From NCBI RefSeq assembly GCF_024345375.1, contig NZ_JAGQAZ010000003.1, forward strand, positions 62,001 to 126,000: DNA of 64,000 nt, written 5' to 3'. The first letter of the stretch is position 1. Each line of letters begins with the position of its first letter. This document shows, one piece after another, positions 4,187 to 17,922 of this stretch. The position numbers and the translations under genes were made by a program. Below the pieces are notes generated by a model, which did not search any database, was not told the DNA's origin, and was given only the letters and a program-made list of their open reading frames with translations. This DNA comes from Cyanobium sp. WAJ14-Wanaka (lineage in GTDB: Bacteria; Cyanobacteriota; Cyanobacteriia; PCC-6307; Cyanobiaceae).

Positions 4187-4951
4187 TCATCCCTGGCGGG
4201 CGGTGCTCAACATTGCGATCGCAATCCAGAGCACTAGGCCAGTCAAGGCGAAGCCACCGGTAGCAACCGTGTATTGCCAAATCCGCTGCACGGCGGGAGT
4301 TGGCTGATTTGCAAGCCAGGCAGGGCGATCCCAGCCAGTGGGCTGACCAAACGAACCGCCGCCGGCGGGAGCCCTGCGGGCCATGGCATTGCGCCAGTAG
4401 GCCTCGTAACGGGGGGCCTGTTGGTTGAAGGGCATGGTGCCCACTGCCTGACCGGCCAACACCCGCGAACGCTGGTAAGGAACCATGTCTTCGCCGAAGT
4501 TTTCAAGATATTCCTGCGAATTGAGCAGGGCATCCACAAAACCAGCCATGCCCTGGCTAGCAATCACGATCGACCAGGCGATCTTCTCCTCCTGGCCGTG
4601 GACAGGACGACCCAAAACCCTGCCAACAACCTGCTCAACCACTCGATAATTGCTGTTGCAACGGTAGAAATCCCTCTGGAACTTCTCAGACAGCAGCAAC
4701 TGGCGCACGAAGCCCCGGGTGGTGATCTGACCAGAGCAGAGTTGCGATTCGAGCTCCCGGTCCCGATCAACCTTGAAGGCGTGGAAATAGATCTGGCGAT
4801 AGGCCTGCTCTACCAGTGCCTTGGCCGCTGCGCGGTCGCCCTGAAGCAGGGCCGTGGCGCTTTGGCGGGTCATCTCCTCGCCTGCGAGCTGGAAGCTGCT
4901 AACCCGAGCGTTATTGGTAAGCGGCTTGACTGCTAGTAGGGGGAGAGGCAT
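4187..4951 (-). CDS. cpcL: CpcL (CpcG2)-type rod linker with C-terminal membrane helix
   Basis: A 254-residue phycobilisome linker. The N-terminus MPLPLLAVKPLTNNARVSSF is typical of CpcG proteins. Residues about 20-180 form one Pfam phycobilisome-linker domain (ALVEQAYRQIYFHAFK, TTRGFVRQLLLSEKF, YRVVEQVVGRVLGRPVHG, NSQEYLENFGEDMVPYQRSR). The C-terminus, instead of a soluble core-binding tail, ends in a hydrophobic helix (GGFALTGLVLWIAIAMLS). That tail defines CpcL/CpcG2 proteins, which in other cyanobacteria hold core-less rods on the thylakoid membrane near photosystem I. An upstream in-frame start exists, but the MPLP start matches the family. The gene is divergent from cpcBA. Confidence 0.85.
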   Translation of the reverse strand: MPLPLLAVKPLTNNARVSSFQLAGEEMTRQSATALLQGDRAAAKALVEQAYRQIYFHAFKVDRDRELESQLCSGQITTRGFVRQLLLSEKFQRDFYRCNSNYRVVEQVVGRVLGRPVHGQEEKIAWSIVIASQGMAGFVDALLNSQEYLENFGEDMVPYQRSRVLAGQAVGTMPFNQQAPRYEAYWRNAMARRAPAGGGSFGQPTGWDRPAWLANQPTPAVQRIWQYTVATGGFALTGLVLWIAIAMLSTARQG

Positions 4952-5230
4952 CACTGGGAAAATGGAGTAGCACACCTTATCCGCTAATGCGAGCCAAGCT
5001 CCTTCTAGGCACAAAAGCCTACAAGGAATTACATGCAGCCCAGCCCTGGCCTGCCCAGCCGAAATCCAGTGACCCTTTGTAAAGCTGGCAGTACTAGCTG
5101 CTGGTCTTGCTGAAAAATGGCCTGGTGCTCAGCACTTGATGCCCACCTGTCTTGGTCAGCCACGACATTTGAGGTATCAGTCCCCCTTACCCACCCTTCC
5201 GACTCTTCGTCGAGACAAGGAGCTCCCAAA
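4952..5230. promoter_or_regulatory. divergent promoter region cpcL / cpcBA
   Basis: The 279 bases between the divergent cpcL and cpcB starts must hold both promoters. A good ribosome site, CAAGGAGC, lies just before cpcB. Little else can be read with confidence; no clear hairpin or repeated operator was found. Confidence 0.4.
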
Positions 5231-5749
5231 ATGTTCGACGCCTTCACCAAGGTTGTTGCCCAGGCCGATGCCCGTGGCGAATTCATCAACGCCGGCCAAA
5301 TAGACGCCCTGGCCGCCATGGTTGCCGAAAGCAACAAGCGCATGGACACGGTGAACCGCATCACCTCCAACGCATCCGCCATCGTCACCAACGCGGCCCG
5401 CAATCTCTTCGATTCGCAGCCCTCCCTGATCGCCCCCGGCGGCAACGCCTACACCAGTCGCCGCATGGCTGCATGCCTGCGCGACATGGAGATCATCCTC
5501 CGCTATGTCAGCTACGCAATCTTCACCGGCGACGCTTCCGTCCTGGAAGATCGCTGCCTGAATGGCCTGCGTGAGACCTACCTCGCCCTCGGCGTCCCCG
5601 GTGCATCCGTGGCAGAAGGAGTCCGCAAGATGAAGGACGCCGCCATCTCGATCGCCAACGATCGCAACGGCATCACCCCTGGCGATTGCACAGCCCTGAT
5701 GTCCGAGGTAGGCACCTACTTCGATCGGGCCGCAGCAGCTGTCGGCTGA
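5231..5749 (+). CDS. cpcB: phycocyanin beta subunit
   Basis: C-phycocyanin beta chain, 172 residues, the normal length, starting [18 protein letters not shown]. The two bilin-binding cysteines are visible: MAACLRD (Cys82, served by an S-type lyase) and TPGDCTALM (Cys153, served by CpcT). The Asn72 that is methylated in the family lies in [18 protein letters not shown] lacks the extra Cys50 of phycoerythrin beta, which separates it from cpeB. The open frame extends upstream, but the start after CAAGGAGCTCCCAAA is certain from the family. It forms an operon with cpcA, and the pair ends at a strong terminator. The protein assembles with CpcA into rod discs on the thylakoid surface. Confidence 0.98.
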
Positions 5750-5820
5750 TCGCCAACTGAATGGCAACCCAGCTGCCTATCAAGCCAGCACTTGGTTAAG
5801 AACATTAATCCTTCCCTTCA

Positions 5821-6309
5821 ATGAAGACCCCCCTCACCGAAGCCGTAGCAGCCGCCGATTCACAAGGTCGCTTTCTCTCCAATACCGAGTTGAATGCAGC
5901 CTTTGGTCGCTATGAAAAGGCAGCCAATGCCCTCTCAGCAGCCAAGGCCCTAACAGCTAAGGCAGACCAACTTGTCAACGGCGCTGCCCAAGCTGTTTAC
6001 AACAAGTATCCCTACACCACCCAGCAAACAGGCAGCAATTTTGCCTCCGATGCCCGTGGCAAGGCCAAGTGTGCCCGCGACATCGGCTATTACCTGCGCA
6101 TGGTCACCTACTGCCTCGTGGCAGGCGGCACCGGCCCCATGGACGAGTACCTAATCGCCGGCCTGGATGAGATCAACCGTTCTTTTGAACTCTCCCCCTC
6201 CTGGTACGTGGAAGCCCTGAATTACATCAAGGCAAACCATGGCATTTCAGGCGAGCCTGGCACCACCGCCAACAACTACATCGATTACGCTATTAATTCC
6301 CTAATCTAA
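5821..6309 (+). CDS. cpcA: phycocyanin alpha subunit
   Basis: C-phycocyanin alpha chain, 162 residues, starting [18 protein letters not shown] and ending DYAINSLI, both diagnostic. The bilin cysteine (Cys84) is in [17 protein letters not shown]. There is one bilin site, as expected of phycocyanin alpha, and it is the usual substrate of the CpcE/CpcF lyase encoded at the far end of the region. No fused lyase of the RpcG kind is seen nearby, so a phycocyanobilin-type alpha chain is the simplest reading; R-phycocyanin cannot be excluded. It lies 71 bases after cpcB. Confidence 0.98.
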
Positions 6310-6409: not shown

Positions 6410-6877
6410 ATGAACGACCCATCCTCAGACCTGAGGTCATTACTAAGTACCTATCAAGGCCAGGAAGACATCCAAGTAGATGCATTGCAGCCAGATCTTC
6501 GCCTTAATCTCCTAGACACCAACATTAAACTTTGGGGCACAACATATCAACAAATAGCAGGCACAGGCGATAATCTACTGCTTGCATGCAATAACTCAAC
6601 GGGACCAGTCGAGGAAGCAGTCCTGACATGGGTAGTGGGAGCAGCCATACGCAGCCTTAGGGTGGAAGGCAAGGACCAATTCACCGATCTGCTTAAGTGC
6701 CTTGGCATAAAGCCTGAATTAATATCGAGCCTTCTCTGCAATTGCCCGGGAATATCTGGTAAAGCAATATGGGCTATTTATTTAGAGCGCCACGGATACC
6801 TGGTGGCGACACCCATACTCTCCGCAGGCCTGGGGCTTGTGGTGGCAAATCAAGATCAGATCAAACAAGCAAACTGA
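6410..6877 (+). CDS. unknown protein of the rod region
   Basis: 155 residues from MNDPSSDLRSLL; the frame opens eleven codons earlier but that start lies close to the terminator. The protein is soluble, with Leu-rich helices (TWVVGAAIRSLRVEGKDQF, DLLKCLGIKPELISSLL) and a Cys-containing LLCNCPGISGKA stretch. No known catalytic motif, no signal peptide. The gene is one base from the following pentapeptide-repeat gene, so the two are coupled, and both have the lower GC of the cpe operon. Its place between cpcBA and the cpe linker operon suggests a role in phycobilisome assembly or regulation. Function unknown. Confidence 0.65.
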   Translation: MNDPSSDLRSLLSTYQGQEDIQVDALQPDLRLNLLDTNIKLWGTTYQQIAGTGDNLLLACNNSTGPVEEAVLTWVVGAAIRSLRVEGKDQFTDLLKCLGIKPELISSLLCNCPGISGKAIWAIYLERHGYLVATPILSAGLGLVVANQDQIKQAN

Positions 6878-6878
6878 C

Positions 6879-7553
6879 ATGTACAACTGGAAAATCCCTG
6901 AGCTGCAGGGGCCCTCAGAGATTGAGGGAACGGCAAATCCAGACTGCCGGGGTGCGGACTGGAGGGGATTAAAACTTGGCGCTGCAAATCTGGGCGGTGC
7001 CAAGCTATGCCGCGTGGACATGCGAGGTACGGACCTCGAGCACTGCAATCTTGAAGGAGCAGATTTACGACTGGTTCGATATGACAAGTTCACCAAATGG
7101 CCCCAAAATTTTGACTTCTGCAGCTCTGGAGCAGTAGGTCCAAGAGCAAAGCTCAGCGGCAGCTTTCTTAATAGTGCGGATCTCTCGGGCCTAGATCTGC
7201 AAGGCGCCAACCTGATGGGCTGCTATTTGAGTGGGGCTGACCTCAGTGGCAGCTGCCTAAGGGGCGCCCGTCTCGCCGGGGCAGATCTGCGACATGCCCT
7301 ACTACGTGGCGCGTGCCTGGAGGGGGTCAGATTTTCGGGCTGTCAACTTGACTACACCGACTTCAGGTCAGCATCACTTGAGGATGCGGACCTAAGTGCG
7401 GCGGACTCGATTCGCGGGGCAGATTTCAGGGGATCCACAGGCCTGGAACCAGGTAGGGCCCAACTCCTAGGCAGATCAATCCAGGAACTTGACTGCTGGA
7501 ACCCTCGCACCCAAACCACCACCCGCCAAAGCCTCGGCCGCTCTCACATTTGA
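6879..7553 (+). CDS. pentapeptide-repeat protein of the rod region
   Basis: 224 residues, mostly pentapeptide repeats of the A(D/N)LxG kind forming a right-handed beta helix: GADWRGLKLGAANLGGAKLC, then LEGADLR, SADLSGLDLQGANLMGCYLS, GADLSGSCLRGARLAGADLR and more to about residue 195. A non-repeat insertion (about residues 66-95) interrupts the first and second blocks. The C-terminal tail is basic. Such proteins are protein-protein adaptors; the partner here is unknown. It is coupled to the preceding unknown gene and followed 72 bases later by the cpeC-type linker gene. Confidence 0.85.
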   Translation: MYNWKIPELQGPSEIEGTANPDCRGADWRGLKLGAANLGGAKLCRVDMRGTDLEHCNLEGADLRLVRYDKFTKWPQNFDFCSSGAVGPRAKLSGSFLNSADLSGLDLQGANLMGCYLSGADLSGSCLRGARLAGADLRHALLRGACLEGVRFSGCQLDYTDFRSASLEDADLSAADSIRGADFRGSTGLEPGRAQLLGRSIQELDCWNPRTQTTTRQSLGRSHI

Positions 7554-7625: not shown

Positions 7626-8501
7626 ATGTCATTTGGCCCAGCCTCACTCCTGGGAGTTGAGCAATTCGACAGCGAAGATCCCCTCGAGCTGCTCCCTGGT
7701 GATTCAAGCGATAAGCAGGAGCAAATCATTCGGGCCGTTTACCGCCAGGTGCTCGGAAATGCCTATGTAATGGAAAGCGAAAGGCAGATAGTAGCCGAAT
7801 CACAGTTCAAACTTGGCGAGCTAAGTCTGCGTGAATTTGTGCGGAGCATTGCCAAGAGTGAGTTATACCGCTCACGCTTCTTTGACGCCTGCCCCAGATA
7901 TCGCTATATCGAGTTGGCCTTCCGGCACCTAATGGGTCGTGCCCCCTCAGATTTTGAGGAGATGCGTGGCCATGCGGAGCGACTTGATAGCCATGGCTAT
8001 GAAGCTGACATTGATAGCTTTATTGATTCGAGTGAGTATCAGGATACCTTTGGCGAGTGGACCGTTCCCTATCAACGGGGCTGGAAAACTGAGAGCTGCA
8101 TGACCATGCAGGAGTTCACCTGGAGCCTCCAGCTACTTCGCGGCGCCAGCAGCAGCAGCCTGAAGGGAAATCTCTCCGGGAAGGCAGCAAGGCTAGGGGG
8201 CAATGCCTACCTGAATCGCCCCATTCCTGTCGTTCCCCCCTCATCCCAGGAAACCCAGGGCTGGGGCTTCAGGCCCTCCCCAAATTTCCAGGATCCCCAA
8301 ACCCGCTTCGCTCCAGGAACAGGGGAAGAAGGGACGATGTACAAGGTCCAAGTTACTGGCTATCGGGCAAACACAATCCGCCCAATCTCACGCTACAAAA
8401 AGTCAAACCGGACCTACTTCGTTCCCTTCTCACAACTATCCCAAACCTACAAGCAAATTCACCGCGAAGGCGGAGTAATTGCAAGTATTACCCCAGCATA
8501 A
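7626..8501 (+). CDS. cpeC: phycoerythrin-associated rod linker CpeC
   Basis: 291-residue rod linker. The start MSFGPASLLGVEQFD and the phrase LLRGASSSSLKGNLSGKA are characteristic of CpeC. Residues about 30-180 form the phycobilisome linker domain (IIRAVYRQVLGNAYVMESER, LREFVRSIAKSELYRSRFF, IELAFRHLMGRAPSD, SSEYQDTFGEWTVPYQRGW). Residues about 237-290 form a CpcD-like domain (MYKVQVTGY..., YFVPFSQLSQTYKQIHREGG). It is the first gene of the cpeC-to-cpeR operon. In the cell it sits inside the hexamer cavity and joins phycoerythrin discs. The class (PE linker) is firm; the exact letter is from sequence memory. Confidence 0.85.
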   Translation: MSFGPASLLGVEQFDSEDPLELLPGDSSDKQEQIIRAVYRQVLGNAYVMESERQIVAESQFKLGELSLREFVRSIAKSELYRSRFFDACPRYRYIELAFRHLMGRAPSDFEEMRGHAERLDSHGYEADIDSFIDSSEYQDTFGEWTVPYQRGWKTESCMTMQEFTWSLQLLRGASSSSLKGNLSGKAARLGGNAYLNRPIPVVPPSSQETQGWGFRPSPNFQDPQTRFAPGTGEEGTMYKVQVTGYRANTIRPISRYKKSNRTYFVPFSQLSQTYKQIHREGGVIASITPA

Positions 8502-8558: not shown

Positions 8559-10085
8559 ATGACCCTTAAATCAGCCGCCTACGGATTTGGTGCCACAACT
8601 CTGCTCGAATCGGCACCCAGCTACAAACTTGGGGATGACGAAACATCCCTAAATTTGGCAATTAATGCATGCTATCGCCATGTATTCGGCAACATCAGAC
8701 CGATGGAAAGTGAGCGCCTCACCTCGGCTGAATCACAATTACGCAACGGCACGATAACCGTCAGAGAGTTTGTTCGCTGCCTAGCAAAATCCGACTTCTA
8801 TCGCTCGCGCTTCTTTGAATCGGTGGCGCCCCATCGTTCAGTTGAACTGAGCGTGAAGCACCTACTCGGAAGGCCTCCCGTTGACGAGGCTGAAGTGAGC
8901 ACCCATGTGGCCAAAATTGCCACCGAAGGATTCGATGCTGACATCGATTCCCTTATTAATTCCAAGGAGTATGAAGACTCCTTTGGGGAGAACACAGTTC
9001 CCCACATTCGCGCCTGGGGAAGCCCCACTGGAGCCCCCCAATCCTCCTTCAACCGCATCGCGGCCCTTGAGCAGAATTTTGCCGGCAGCGATAGCTCCGT
9101 TGGCACGAAAAGCCAGCTTCTCAGCAACCTGGCAAAAGGCCAGCCCATCAGCATCAGAATTCCAGCCCAGGTCTACCGAACCCAAAGCTCCGGTTCCTTC
9201 GGCGGCTCATCTTCCCTGAATGGGGCCTTCGCCCCAGTTAGGCGCTCGACAAGCGATGGCGGCGACTCCACCCCCCTGCGCGGCGACGTCTATGTCGGCT
9301 TCGGGGTGGGTCAGCGAACCCAGGAAGTTTTCCAGCGCTGCAATGGTGACACTGCAGATCAACTCCTGGGCCTAATTCGCTCCGCATATCGTCAAGTGAT
9401 GGGCAACCCCCACATGATGGAAAGCGAGCGCGATTTGACAGCCGAAAGCAAGTTTGTAGAAGGCAATCTGAGCACCCGTGAATTCATCAGGGCGATTGCA
9501 AATTCAGCCGAATATAGCCGCCGCTTCTTTGAAAGCAACACTCCCTACCGCTTTGTAGAACTCAACTTCAAGCATCTGCTTGGCCGTTCGCCCCGCAACC
9601 AGCAGGAAGTTAGTGAGCACATTCAAAGAATGGCCAATGAGGGCTATGGGGCTGAAATCAACAGCTACATAGACAGTGCCGAATACCAGGATGTGTTTGG
9701 TGAGCAGACAATCCCCTATGCCCGCCTAGCAACCGAAAATGGCCGTGACCAGATCGGCTTCAACCGGAATCTGTCCCTATTCCAGGGCTATTCAAGTAGC
9801 GATACGGTTCAAACATCATCCAGCCTTGTGCTCTCACTGGGCGCAAACATGCTCCCCAATGGTTGGGGCACTACAACCGTTCGCAACAACCGCCGTAGCG
9901 CCTTCAGCGGCTCTGCTGACCCCACCACAAAGCGCTTCAGGATCGTCGTCCAAGCCCAGCCAGCTGGTGGCCGCCAACGCACTCCCAACGCCAGCTATTT
10001 GGTTTCCGGCAAAGACATGACCACCCAGTTGTCATACATTCATCGCCGCGGTGGCCGGATTGTCTCAATTACTGAAGTAGCCTAA
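8559..10085 (+). CDS. double-headed phycobilisome rod linker (two linker domains plus CpcD domain)
   Basis: 508 residues with two complete linker domains in one chain. Domain 1 is about residues 25-165 (INACYRHVFGNIRPMESERL, VREFVRCLAKSDFYRSRFFE, HLLGRPPVDEAE, SKEYEDSFGENTVPHIRAW). A Ser/Gly-rich joint (about 165-265) follows. Domain 2 is about 270-420 (LIRSAYRQVMGNPHMMESER, TREFIRAIANSAEYSRRFFE, VELNFKHLLGRSPRNQQE, YQDVFGEQTIPYARL). A CpcD domain closes the protein (about 455-508). Most rod linkers have only one linker domain, so this protein could join two disc interfaces. By position it takes the place of cpeD in the cpeCDESTR order known from filamentous cyanobacteria. Marine Synechococcus have similar long PE linkers. 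Confidence 0.9.
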   Translation: MTLKSAAYGFGATTLLESAPSYKLGDDETSLNLAINACYRHVFGNIRPMESERLTSAESQLRNGTITVREFVRCLAKSDFYRSRFFESVAPHRSVELSVKHLLGRPPVDEAEVSTHVAKIATEGFDADIDSLINSKEYEDSFGENTVPHIRAWGSPTGAPQSSFNRIAALEQNFAGSDSSVGTKSQLLSNLAKGQPISIRIPAQVYRTQSSGSFGGSSSLNGAFAPVRRSTSDGGDSTPLRGDVYVGFGVGQRTQEVFQRCNGDTADQLLGLIRSAYRQVMGNPHMMESERDLTAESKFVEGNLSTREFIRAIANSAEYSRRFFESNTPYRFVELNFKHLLGRSPRNQQEVSEHIQRMANEGYGAEINSYIDSAEYQDVFGEQTIPYARLATENGRDQIGFNRNLSLFQGYSSSDTVQTSSSLVLSLGANMLPNGWGTTTVRNNRRSAFSGSADPTTKRFRIVVQAQPAGGRQRTPNASYLVSGKDMTTQLSYIHRRGGRIVSITEVA

Positions 10086-10138
10086 GAAATCTAAAGGTTC
10101 AAATCAAGGCTACAACTAATTCAAAAAACGTGATCAAC

Positions 10139-10885
10139 ATGCAAACAATCACTAGACAGACCACCACATCAATTCAAGATTTCAGCCAAGCCCAGTCGAT
10201 CCTGCGCTCCGCCTACAAACAGGTATTTGGCAATGCCCACCTGATGGAAGAAGAGCTGGTAACCACAGCAGAGAGTCTCTTTCTGCAGGGGGACCTCACC
10301 GTGCAGGGCCTGATCTCAGCCCTCGCAACATCCGATACCTACCGCAAGCTATTTTTAGATAAAAATGGCCCCTATCGCTTTGTAGAACTCAACTTCAAGC
10401 ATCTGCTGGGCCGCGTCCCCCAGGATCAATCGGAGTTGAGCCACCACGTTCAGCTACTTGCCAACGAAGGCTATGAAGCTGAAATCGCAAGCTACGTTTC
10501 ATCAGCCGAATACATCGAAAACTTCGGCTTCGACACAGTGCCCTACTGGCGCACAAACCAAACATCAACAGGCGCTGCCAACGTCACCTACGTGCGTAGC
10601 CTGAAAATGCAAGGCGGCCAGGCAACATTTGATGGCACCTCGGGATCCAAGCTCAAGGCAAGCCTGGCCACAGGTGATGCACCTAATATTGATATTCAGG
10701 GTAAGCGCGGTGAAAGCACTAGCCGCAACGACCGCCGCTATCGTATTTGCTGGACAACGGCATCACCTTCGGGCCTAAACAGAAGAGCTGTCCAGGTGTC
10801 GAATGTTCCCTATAGCAGCCTCTCCAAAACAGTGCAGGGTGTGCAAAGGCTTGGCGGTTCAATCCTATCCATTACTAACGGCTAG
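10139..10885 (+). CDS. cpeE: phycoerythrin rod linker (CpeD/CpeE type)
   Basis: 248-residue rod linker with one linker domain (about residues 15-155: ILRSAYKQVFGNAHLMEEEL, RFVELNFKHLLGRVPQDQSE, SAEYIENFGFDTVPYWR) and a C-terminal CpcD domain (about 195-247: YRICWTTASPSGLN, SNVPYSSLSKTVQGVQRLGG, ILSI). The frame also opens at a GTG three codons upstream; I chose the ATG. Its VELNFKHLLGR segment is nearly identical at DNA level to the second domain of the preceding linker, suggesting common descent by duplication. The symbol follows the third position in a cpeCDESTR-like order and is less certain than the class. Confidence 0.75.
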   Translation: MQTITRQTTTSIQDFSQAQSILRSAYKQVFGNAHLMEEELVTTAESLFLQGDLTVQGLISALATSDTYRKLFLDKNGPYRFVELNFKHLLGRVPQDQSELSHHVQLLANEGYEAEIASYVSSAEYIENFGFDTVPYWRTNQTSTGAANVTYVRSLKMQGGQATFDGTSGSKLKASLATGDAPNIDIQGKRGESTSRNDRRYRICWTTASPSGLNRRAVQVSNVPYSSLSKTVQGVQRLGGSILSITNG

Positions 10886-16454: not shown

Positions 16455-16994
<540 letters not shown>

Positions 16995-17002
16995 TCAGTC
17001 GC

Positions 17003-17922
<920 letters not shown>

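Follow-up and report, generated by a model that had tools for sequence, protein, structure and literature searches.

The window analysed here, a stretch of 64,000 nucleotides from Cyanobium sp. WAJ14-Wanaka, codes for a chain with two linker domains at the place where cpeD is expected, which raises the questions of how many phycoerythrin (PE) hexamers one such protein would hold and where its two halves come from. We propose, with a probability of about four in five, that it is a double-length PE rod linker of the MpeD/CpeD-like family, a single chain of which would bridge three stacked hexamers. The features discussed are listed in Table 1.

Table 1. Features of the double linker and its surroundings (positions in the window).
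Feature	Position	Strand	Basis
Putative two-domain PE rod linker (MpeD/CpeD-like), 508 aa, without the PUB-site cysteine pair	8559..10085	+	translation, Pfam, conservation
First PF00427 domain, residues 27-151, most likely the lineage-specific half	8637..9011	+	Pfam, AlphaFold, tree
Interdomain stretch, residues 152-245, partly Ser/Gly-rich, without CpcD relic	9012..9293	+	
Predicted complete CpeD-like unit, residues 246-508: leader, second PF00427, spacer, CpcD	9294..10082	+	
CpcD domain (PF01383), residues 458-505 of the double linker	9930..10073	+	Pfam
CpeC-like one-domain linker with CpcD	7626..8501	+	Pfam, tree
CpeE-like one-domain linker with CpcD	10130..10885	+	Pfam, tree
CpcG-type rod linker with hydrophobic C-tail (probably CpcL-like)	4187..5014	-	Pfam, NCBIfam, hydropathy
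cpeA and cpeB, phycoerythrin subunits	16455..17620	-	NCBIfam

Domain content of the double linker

Translation of frame 8559-10085 (+) gives 508 residues with zero inner stops. Pfam detects PF00427 twice (315.4 bits summed, best stretch 27-151) and CpcD once, with 29.9 bits for a cut-off of 27, so that the architecture announced in the earlier note, two linker domains and one CpcD in a single stop-free frame, is confirmed. Taken separately, the two PF00427 domains score 163.5 and 159 bits and rank 2 and 3 among the nine PF00427 places of the genome. The segment joining them had been described as Ser/Gly-rich, which is only partly the case: 30 of its 94 residues are Ser or Gly, with a peak around 210-222, but it also contains a conserved block at 164-182. 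By eye, this block looks like the stretch that starts at residue 401, C-terminal to domain 2. A relic of CpcD between the two domains was searched for and not found (hhalign probability 0.2%, E 0.37; best hmmsearch E 1.1).

Outside the host family, no match spanning both domains and CpcD was present among the matches listed; those reaching CpcD begin at residues 237-272, the best one at 246. At the corresponding loci (L091-L102), the matching frames are one-domain and 251-314 residues long, except L101, an example of how a longer chain can hide behind a partial match. Because matches from outside the family begin around residue 246 and come mostly from one-domain frames, residues 246-508 read, on sequence grounds, as a complete CpeD-like linker, and residues 1-245 as an added domain with its extension.

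L101 (genome G380) is a 664-residue frame with three PF00427 and one CpcD, and adjoins a one-domain CpeD-like linker. Other families of the class also have frames with two to four PF00427 and without CpcD (L085, L086, L087, L088, L089, L090, and L063 and L073 from Hormoscilla), which are reminiscent of CpcN, a protein whose homologues are reported absent from crown cyanobacteria in the part of PMC10696076 cited here. Multi-domain frames of other families align to both domains of the double linker too, and their domains did not group with first halves in the first of the trees described below.

Structure model and comparison with multi-domain linkers

The AlphaFold model, computed from 29 aligned sequences, has a mean pLDDT of 64.7 and a pTM of 0.36, and gives no domain-domain geometry. 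It contains two compact helical domains, with block pLDDT values of 74-91 (residues 21-150) and 68-91 (residues 261-390), and a C-terminal CpcD-like fold (pLDDT 52-79); the connecting stretches are below 50. Superposition on the single PF00427 domains of rod linkers 3pru and 3nph gives an rmsd of 0.8-1.2 Å over some 134 columns, and Foldseek matches of the model include Gloeobacter and Anthocerotibacter linkers, ApcE and canonical rod linkers. Domain search and structure prediction, both proposed as checks in the earlier note, thus return the same picture of two PF00427, or helical, domains followed by CpcD.

No MpeD-like linker was present among the PDB matches listed, and the best sequence match was CpcN (8imn). 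CpcN and CpcJ of Anthocerotibacter panamensis, like Glr1262 and Glr2806 of Gloeobacter, also have several PF00427 per chain, and their structures are solved. As described in the cited part of PMC10696076, CpcN carries five PF00427 domains, lacks CpcD, and joins phycocyanin hexamers into loosely staggered chains. Given this top match, and a tether predicted at low confidence as disordered stretches are, one could imagine the two domains of the window protein arranging their hexamers in a loose staggered chain, or as a side branch, and not in a stacked rod. We consider such an arrangement unlikely, since, like canonical rod linkers, the window protein ends in a CpcD, and since its second half clusters with CpeD-like rows; with two PF00427 and a CpcD, it was also rejected as a member of the CpcN group. 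Another candidate was the core-membrane linker ApcE, in which a phycobiliprotein-like domain is followed, along a long chain, by several PF00427 domains; it was rejected as well, the window protein having 508 aa with PF00427 and CpcD only.

Occurrence and conservation

Among the 201 genomes of the host family (Cyanobiaceae, own genome included), 59, again with our own, have a match spanning both domains and CpcD, according to a hand count of the matches listed, and no stop is found inside these matches. One of the 59 (G049) has a three-domain frame, and G097 has two copies. The frame of G049 (L109) is 711 residues long, with three PF00427 and one CpcD, and is flanked by a linker with CpcD and by a CpeE-like linker. 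Of the 201 genomes, 123 have CpeB above cut-off; among the 59 with the double linker the number is 58, the call for one of which (G199) derives from the tally and the E-value. The last one, G096, has the double linker and no CpeB above cut-off; this genome is 85% complete. As to the 65 further genomes with CpeB, 63 have just one or two phycobiliprotein matches and would resemble Prochlorococcus. The two others, G164 and G180, have many phycobiliprotein matches and no full-length double-linker match; in G164, the halves of the double linker are located at two contig ends. In G180, linkers are spread over several contigs.

A scan of named genomes returned 37 loci, namely 24 picocyanobacterial ones, three from Hormoscilla, and ten whose frames are ApcE-like in architecture (nine from Calothrix or Dulcicalothrix, one from Vasconcelosia). 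The picocyanobacterial loci include those of Cyanobium sp. Aljojuca 7A6 (78%), Synechococcus lacustris and Vulcanococcus limneticus, and the double architecture occurs both in named isolates and in MAGs. All 63 double loci examined, window included (49 distinct sequences), are flanked on the same strand by a linker with CpcD on the upstream side and another linker on the downstream side. Locus counts leave out the duplicates of our own genome (L001-L009), and counts of double loci leave out L058 and L061, which are cut by contig ends.

These data bear on the two ways in which, according to the earlier note, its claim could fail. The first, an artificial merger of two genes by assembly or gene calling, is ruled out by the recurrence of the same stop-free architecture in 59/201 genomes, its presence in isolates and MAGs, and the gene order conserved at 63/63 loci. 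The second, conservation of only one half in relatives, does not hold inside the family: for the 48 other distinct sequences, median identity to the window protein is 63% in domain 1 versus 71% in domain 2, with 61% in the interdomain stretch, 71% in the domain-2 leader, 55% in the spacer and 88% in CpcD.

Linker set of the genome

The gene does occupy the place of cpeD, as first noted, with the CpeC-like linker upstream and the CpeE-like linker downstream. Upstream of the CpeC-like linker, frame 6837-7553 (+) looks by eye like a pentapeptide-repeat protein. The phycocyanin beta and alpha genes are found at 5117-6309 (NCBIfam). The whole genome has nine PF00427 places: four in the three PE linkers, three in a 993-residue frame on contig C1, which we take from its architecture to be ApcE, and two in CpcG-type frames without CpcD (4187-5014 and one on contig C4). 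CpcD is above cut-off in the three PE linkers and in a 78-residue frame adjoining the presumed ApcE on C1, which its place suggests to be ApcC; a fifth place is below cut-off. None of the nine PF00427 places remains for a CpcC, and the linker set therefore fits with one phycocyanin hexamer per rod, as argued for PE strains in the cited part of Six et al. (2007; PMC2246261). The PE linker set of the window is thereby explained as four PE linker domains in three genes, in a picocyanobacterium where CpeB is above the curated cut-off once. The idea that the double linker alone would set PE rod length was too strong and is not retained, because the same cluster codes for two more PE linkers.

The CpcG-type linker beside cpcBA has a C-tail with a 19-residue hydropathy of 1.96; because of this hydrophobic tail, it is probably CpcL-like.

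Relation to MpeD

The double linker belongs to a kind already known. A chimeric two-domain linker, MpeD, was described in marine Synechococcus by Six et al. (2007; PMC2246261), who also report, in the part cited here, that MpeF and MpeG are related to its amino terminus and that the PEII-less strain WH7805 has an MpeD homologue without the PUB-binding stretch. In Table 1 of PMC4139726, the linkers of pigment type II include an mpeD that has no PUB-binding domain. PMC6363710 uses the name cpeCDE for the linker operon of PE strains, and the order in WH8102 is cpeC/mpeD/cpeE, according to a table of PMC2408579. The window protein shares with the MpeD of PEII strains, as the cited parts of PMC2246261 and PMC2408579 describe it, the two linker domains, the CpeD-like C half and this gene order. 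Its C-terminal unit is CpeD-like and includes CpcD, its gene lies between cpeC and cpeE, its C half is kin to CpeD with moderate support, and its N half is kin to PEII-type linkers (100/97 clade). Single-domain CpeD proteins of other cyanobacteria match the second half, at up to 53% over residues 246-507, but are without the first PF00427 domain.

The window protein differs from MpeD of PEII strains in having no C-X14-C pair before domain 1. On whole frames, the pair is present at 18 of 70 double loci, a set in which the same genome can occur as copies from two collections and of which 63 loci amount to 49 distinct sequences; a nineteenth positive, L141, was left out, its match being located right where the frame begins and not within the likely protein. 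Whole frames matter here in that the alignment used to compare halves begins each protein at the Met closest to 25 residues ahead of domain 1, so that PEII leaders are clipped and cysteine lists are incomplete. In L080, the cysteines are at 43 and 58 of the frame read, and this sequence position fits the published PUB site, two cysteines within residues 43-59 that are missing in WH7805 (PMC2246261, part cited). Four double loci (L038, L145, L112 and L142) come from genomes with a second CpeB match above cut-off and likewise have no C-X14-C pair; in the genomes of L112 and L142, the two CpeB copies score alike. Because the pair is absent, we class the window protein, from its sequence, as MpeD-like and not as MpeD sensu stricto. 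It would be of the PUB-less kind found in WH7805 (pigment type 2), whose linker, compared by its description in part of the source, likewise has two domains, no PUB-binding stretch and a PEI-only context.

Proposed role in the rod

In canonical rod linkers, CpcD is oriented into the next hexamer towards the core. For the stacking, the identity of the hexamers held and the rod length, we infer the following arrangement. Two PE hexamers would each take up one PF00427 domain in their cavity, with the interdomain stretch (about 94 residues) passing from one to the other, and the C-terminal CpcD would reach into the next hexamer on the core side. One double linker would then hold three hexamers through two joints, where a single-domain CpeD would hold two through one joint. 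This bridging is favoured by the presence of two PF00427 and a CpcD, the conserved gene order, the co-occurrence with CpeB in 58/59 genomes and the structural matches to single domains. It is also favoured by an existing proposal: for the WH7805 homologue, the cited part of Six et al. (2007) suggests, with reference to a cluster map and a gel, that the long linker equals two linkers and adds one PE disc, so that the idea is already in print; the same study checked linkers of WH7805 by mass spectrometry. Counted against it are the lack of an MpeD-like linker among the PDB matches listed, a model that does not place the domains relative to each other, the staggered chains made by CpcN, the lack of a full-length match in G164 and G180, and G096 with no CpeB above cut-off.

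The chain could also be cleaved after synthesis into two one-domain linkers, the fusion merely fixing their ratio. The low pLDDT of the tether would suit cleavage, as would the fact that the second half is a CpeD-like unit complete with a leader of its own. The first half, however, has neither CpcD nor a relic of it and would, alone, miss the usual C-terminal unit; moreover, the WH7805 homologue is called a long linker in the part of PMC2246261 cited, with reference to a gel. Cleavage is therefore quite improbable, and the bridging of three stacked hexamers by an intact chain remains our preferred reading.

Origin of the two halves

The phylogeny of the halves, another check proposed beforehand, points to the first half as most likely the younger, lineage-specific one, since, among the rows examined, every counterpart that grouped with it came from inside the family. 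In the first tree (136 rows, 129 columns), L111 and L112, from divergent genomes, had both halves placed away from the main ones, with their first halves close to CpeE-like rows, and a pair of ApcE rows came out among first halves; we read these misplacements as due to too few columns and long branches. The halves grouped once 40 residues after the domain were added (second tree, 112 rows and 175 columns, excluding L109 domains 1 and 3 and L143). There, second halves formed one clade (98/87, including one L109 domain), with single-domain CpeD-like rows from other families as neighbours (93/89), and first halves formed one clade with five single linkers without CpcD (95/81). In the third tree (83 rows, 27 such single linkers in all), first halves and singles again made one clade (97/92), with the singles nested within (100/97 and 99/95). 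AU tests rejected first halves alone as a clade (p-AU 0.001) and singles alone as a clade (p-AU 0.008), with groups named by architecture and a nesting already seen in the earlier trees. The nested single linkers are of PEII type and of Prochlorococcus type; the label PEII-type was given on genome context and motif rather than on protein names.

The CpeE-like rows of the main group were unstable, being sister to first halves in the second tree (86/80) and inside the second-half clade in the third (about 89-93/87-89), where second halves formed one clade in 10% of bootstrap trees. Because these rows change place between trees, the CpeD-like nature of the second half has moderate support.

Because the singles nest within the first-half clade, the trees support one old fusion, with single linkers that would derive from its first half. 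In one possible order of events, which we put at slightly below an even chance, an old fusion set the extra domain before CpeD in the picocyanobacterial ancestor; one-domain linkers of PEII strains and of Prochlorococcus type would then have been copied from the first half without the CpeD part, some of them later gaining a CpcL-like hydrophobic tail. In the open-licence papers searched, we saw no statement of this order. It would reverse the published view, in which MpeD is a fusion of a PEII linker with a PEI linker, and marine picocyanobacteria would have drawn on a linker fusion as raw material for their blue-light antenna. An ancestor in which PEII was already present is argued for in PMC6363710, which names S. 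spongiarum, has type II strains losing PEII, and reports transfers of whole clusters. With such an ancestor, PEII linkers could be as old as the fusion, which makes the order proposed here less probable.

A hydrophobic end stretch is present in ten single PEII-type linkers (L104, L105, L108, L119, L120, L126, L148, L121, L123 and L125). The tails of L121, L123 and L125 look by eye like CpcG2-type tails, such as that of L048; CpcG2-like tails on PEII-type linkers would be in keeping with PE rods anchored to the membrane.
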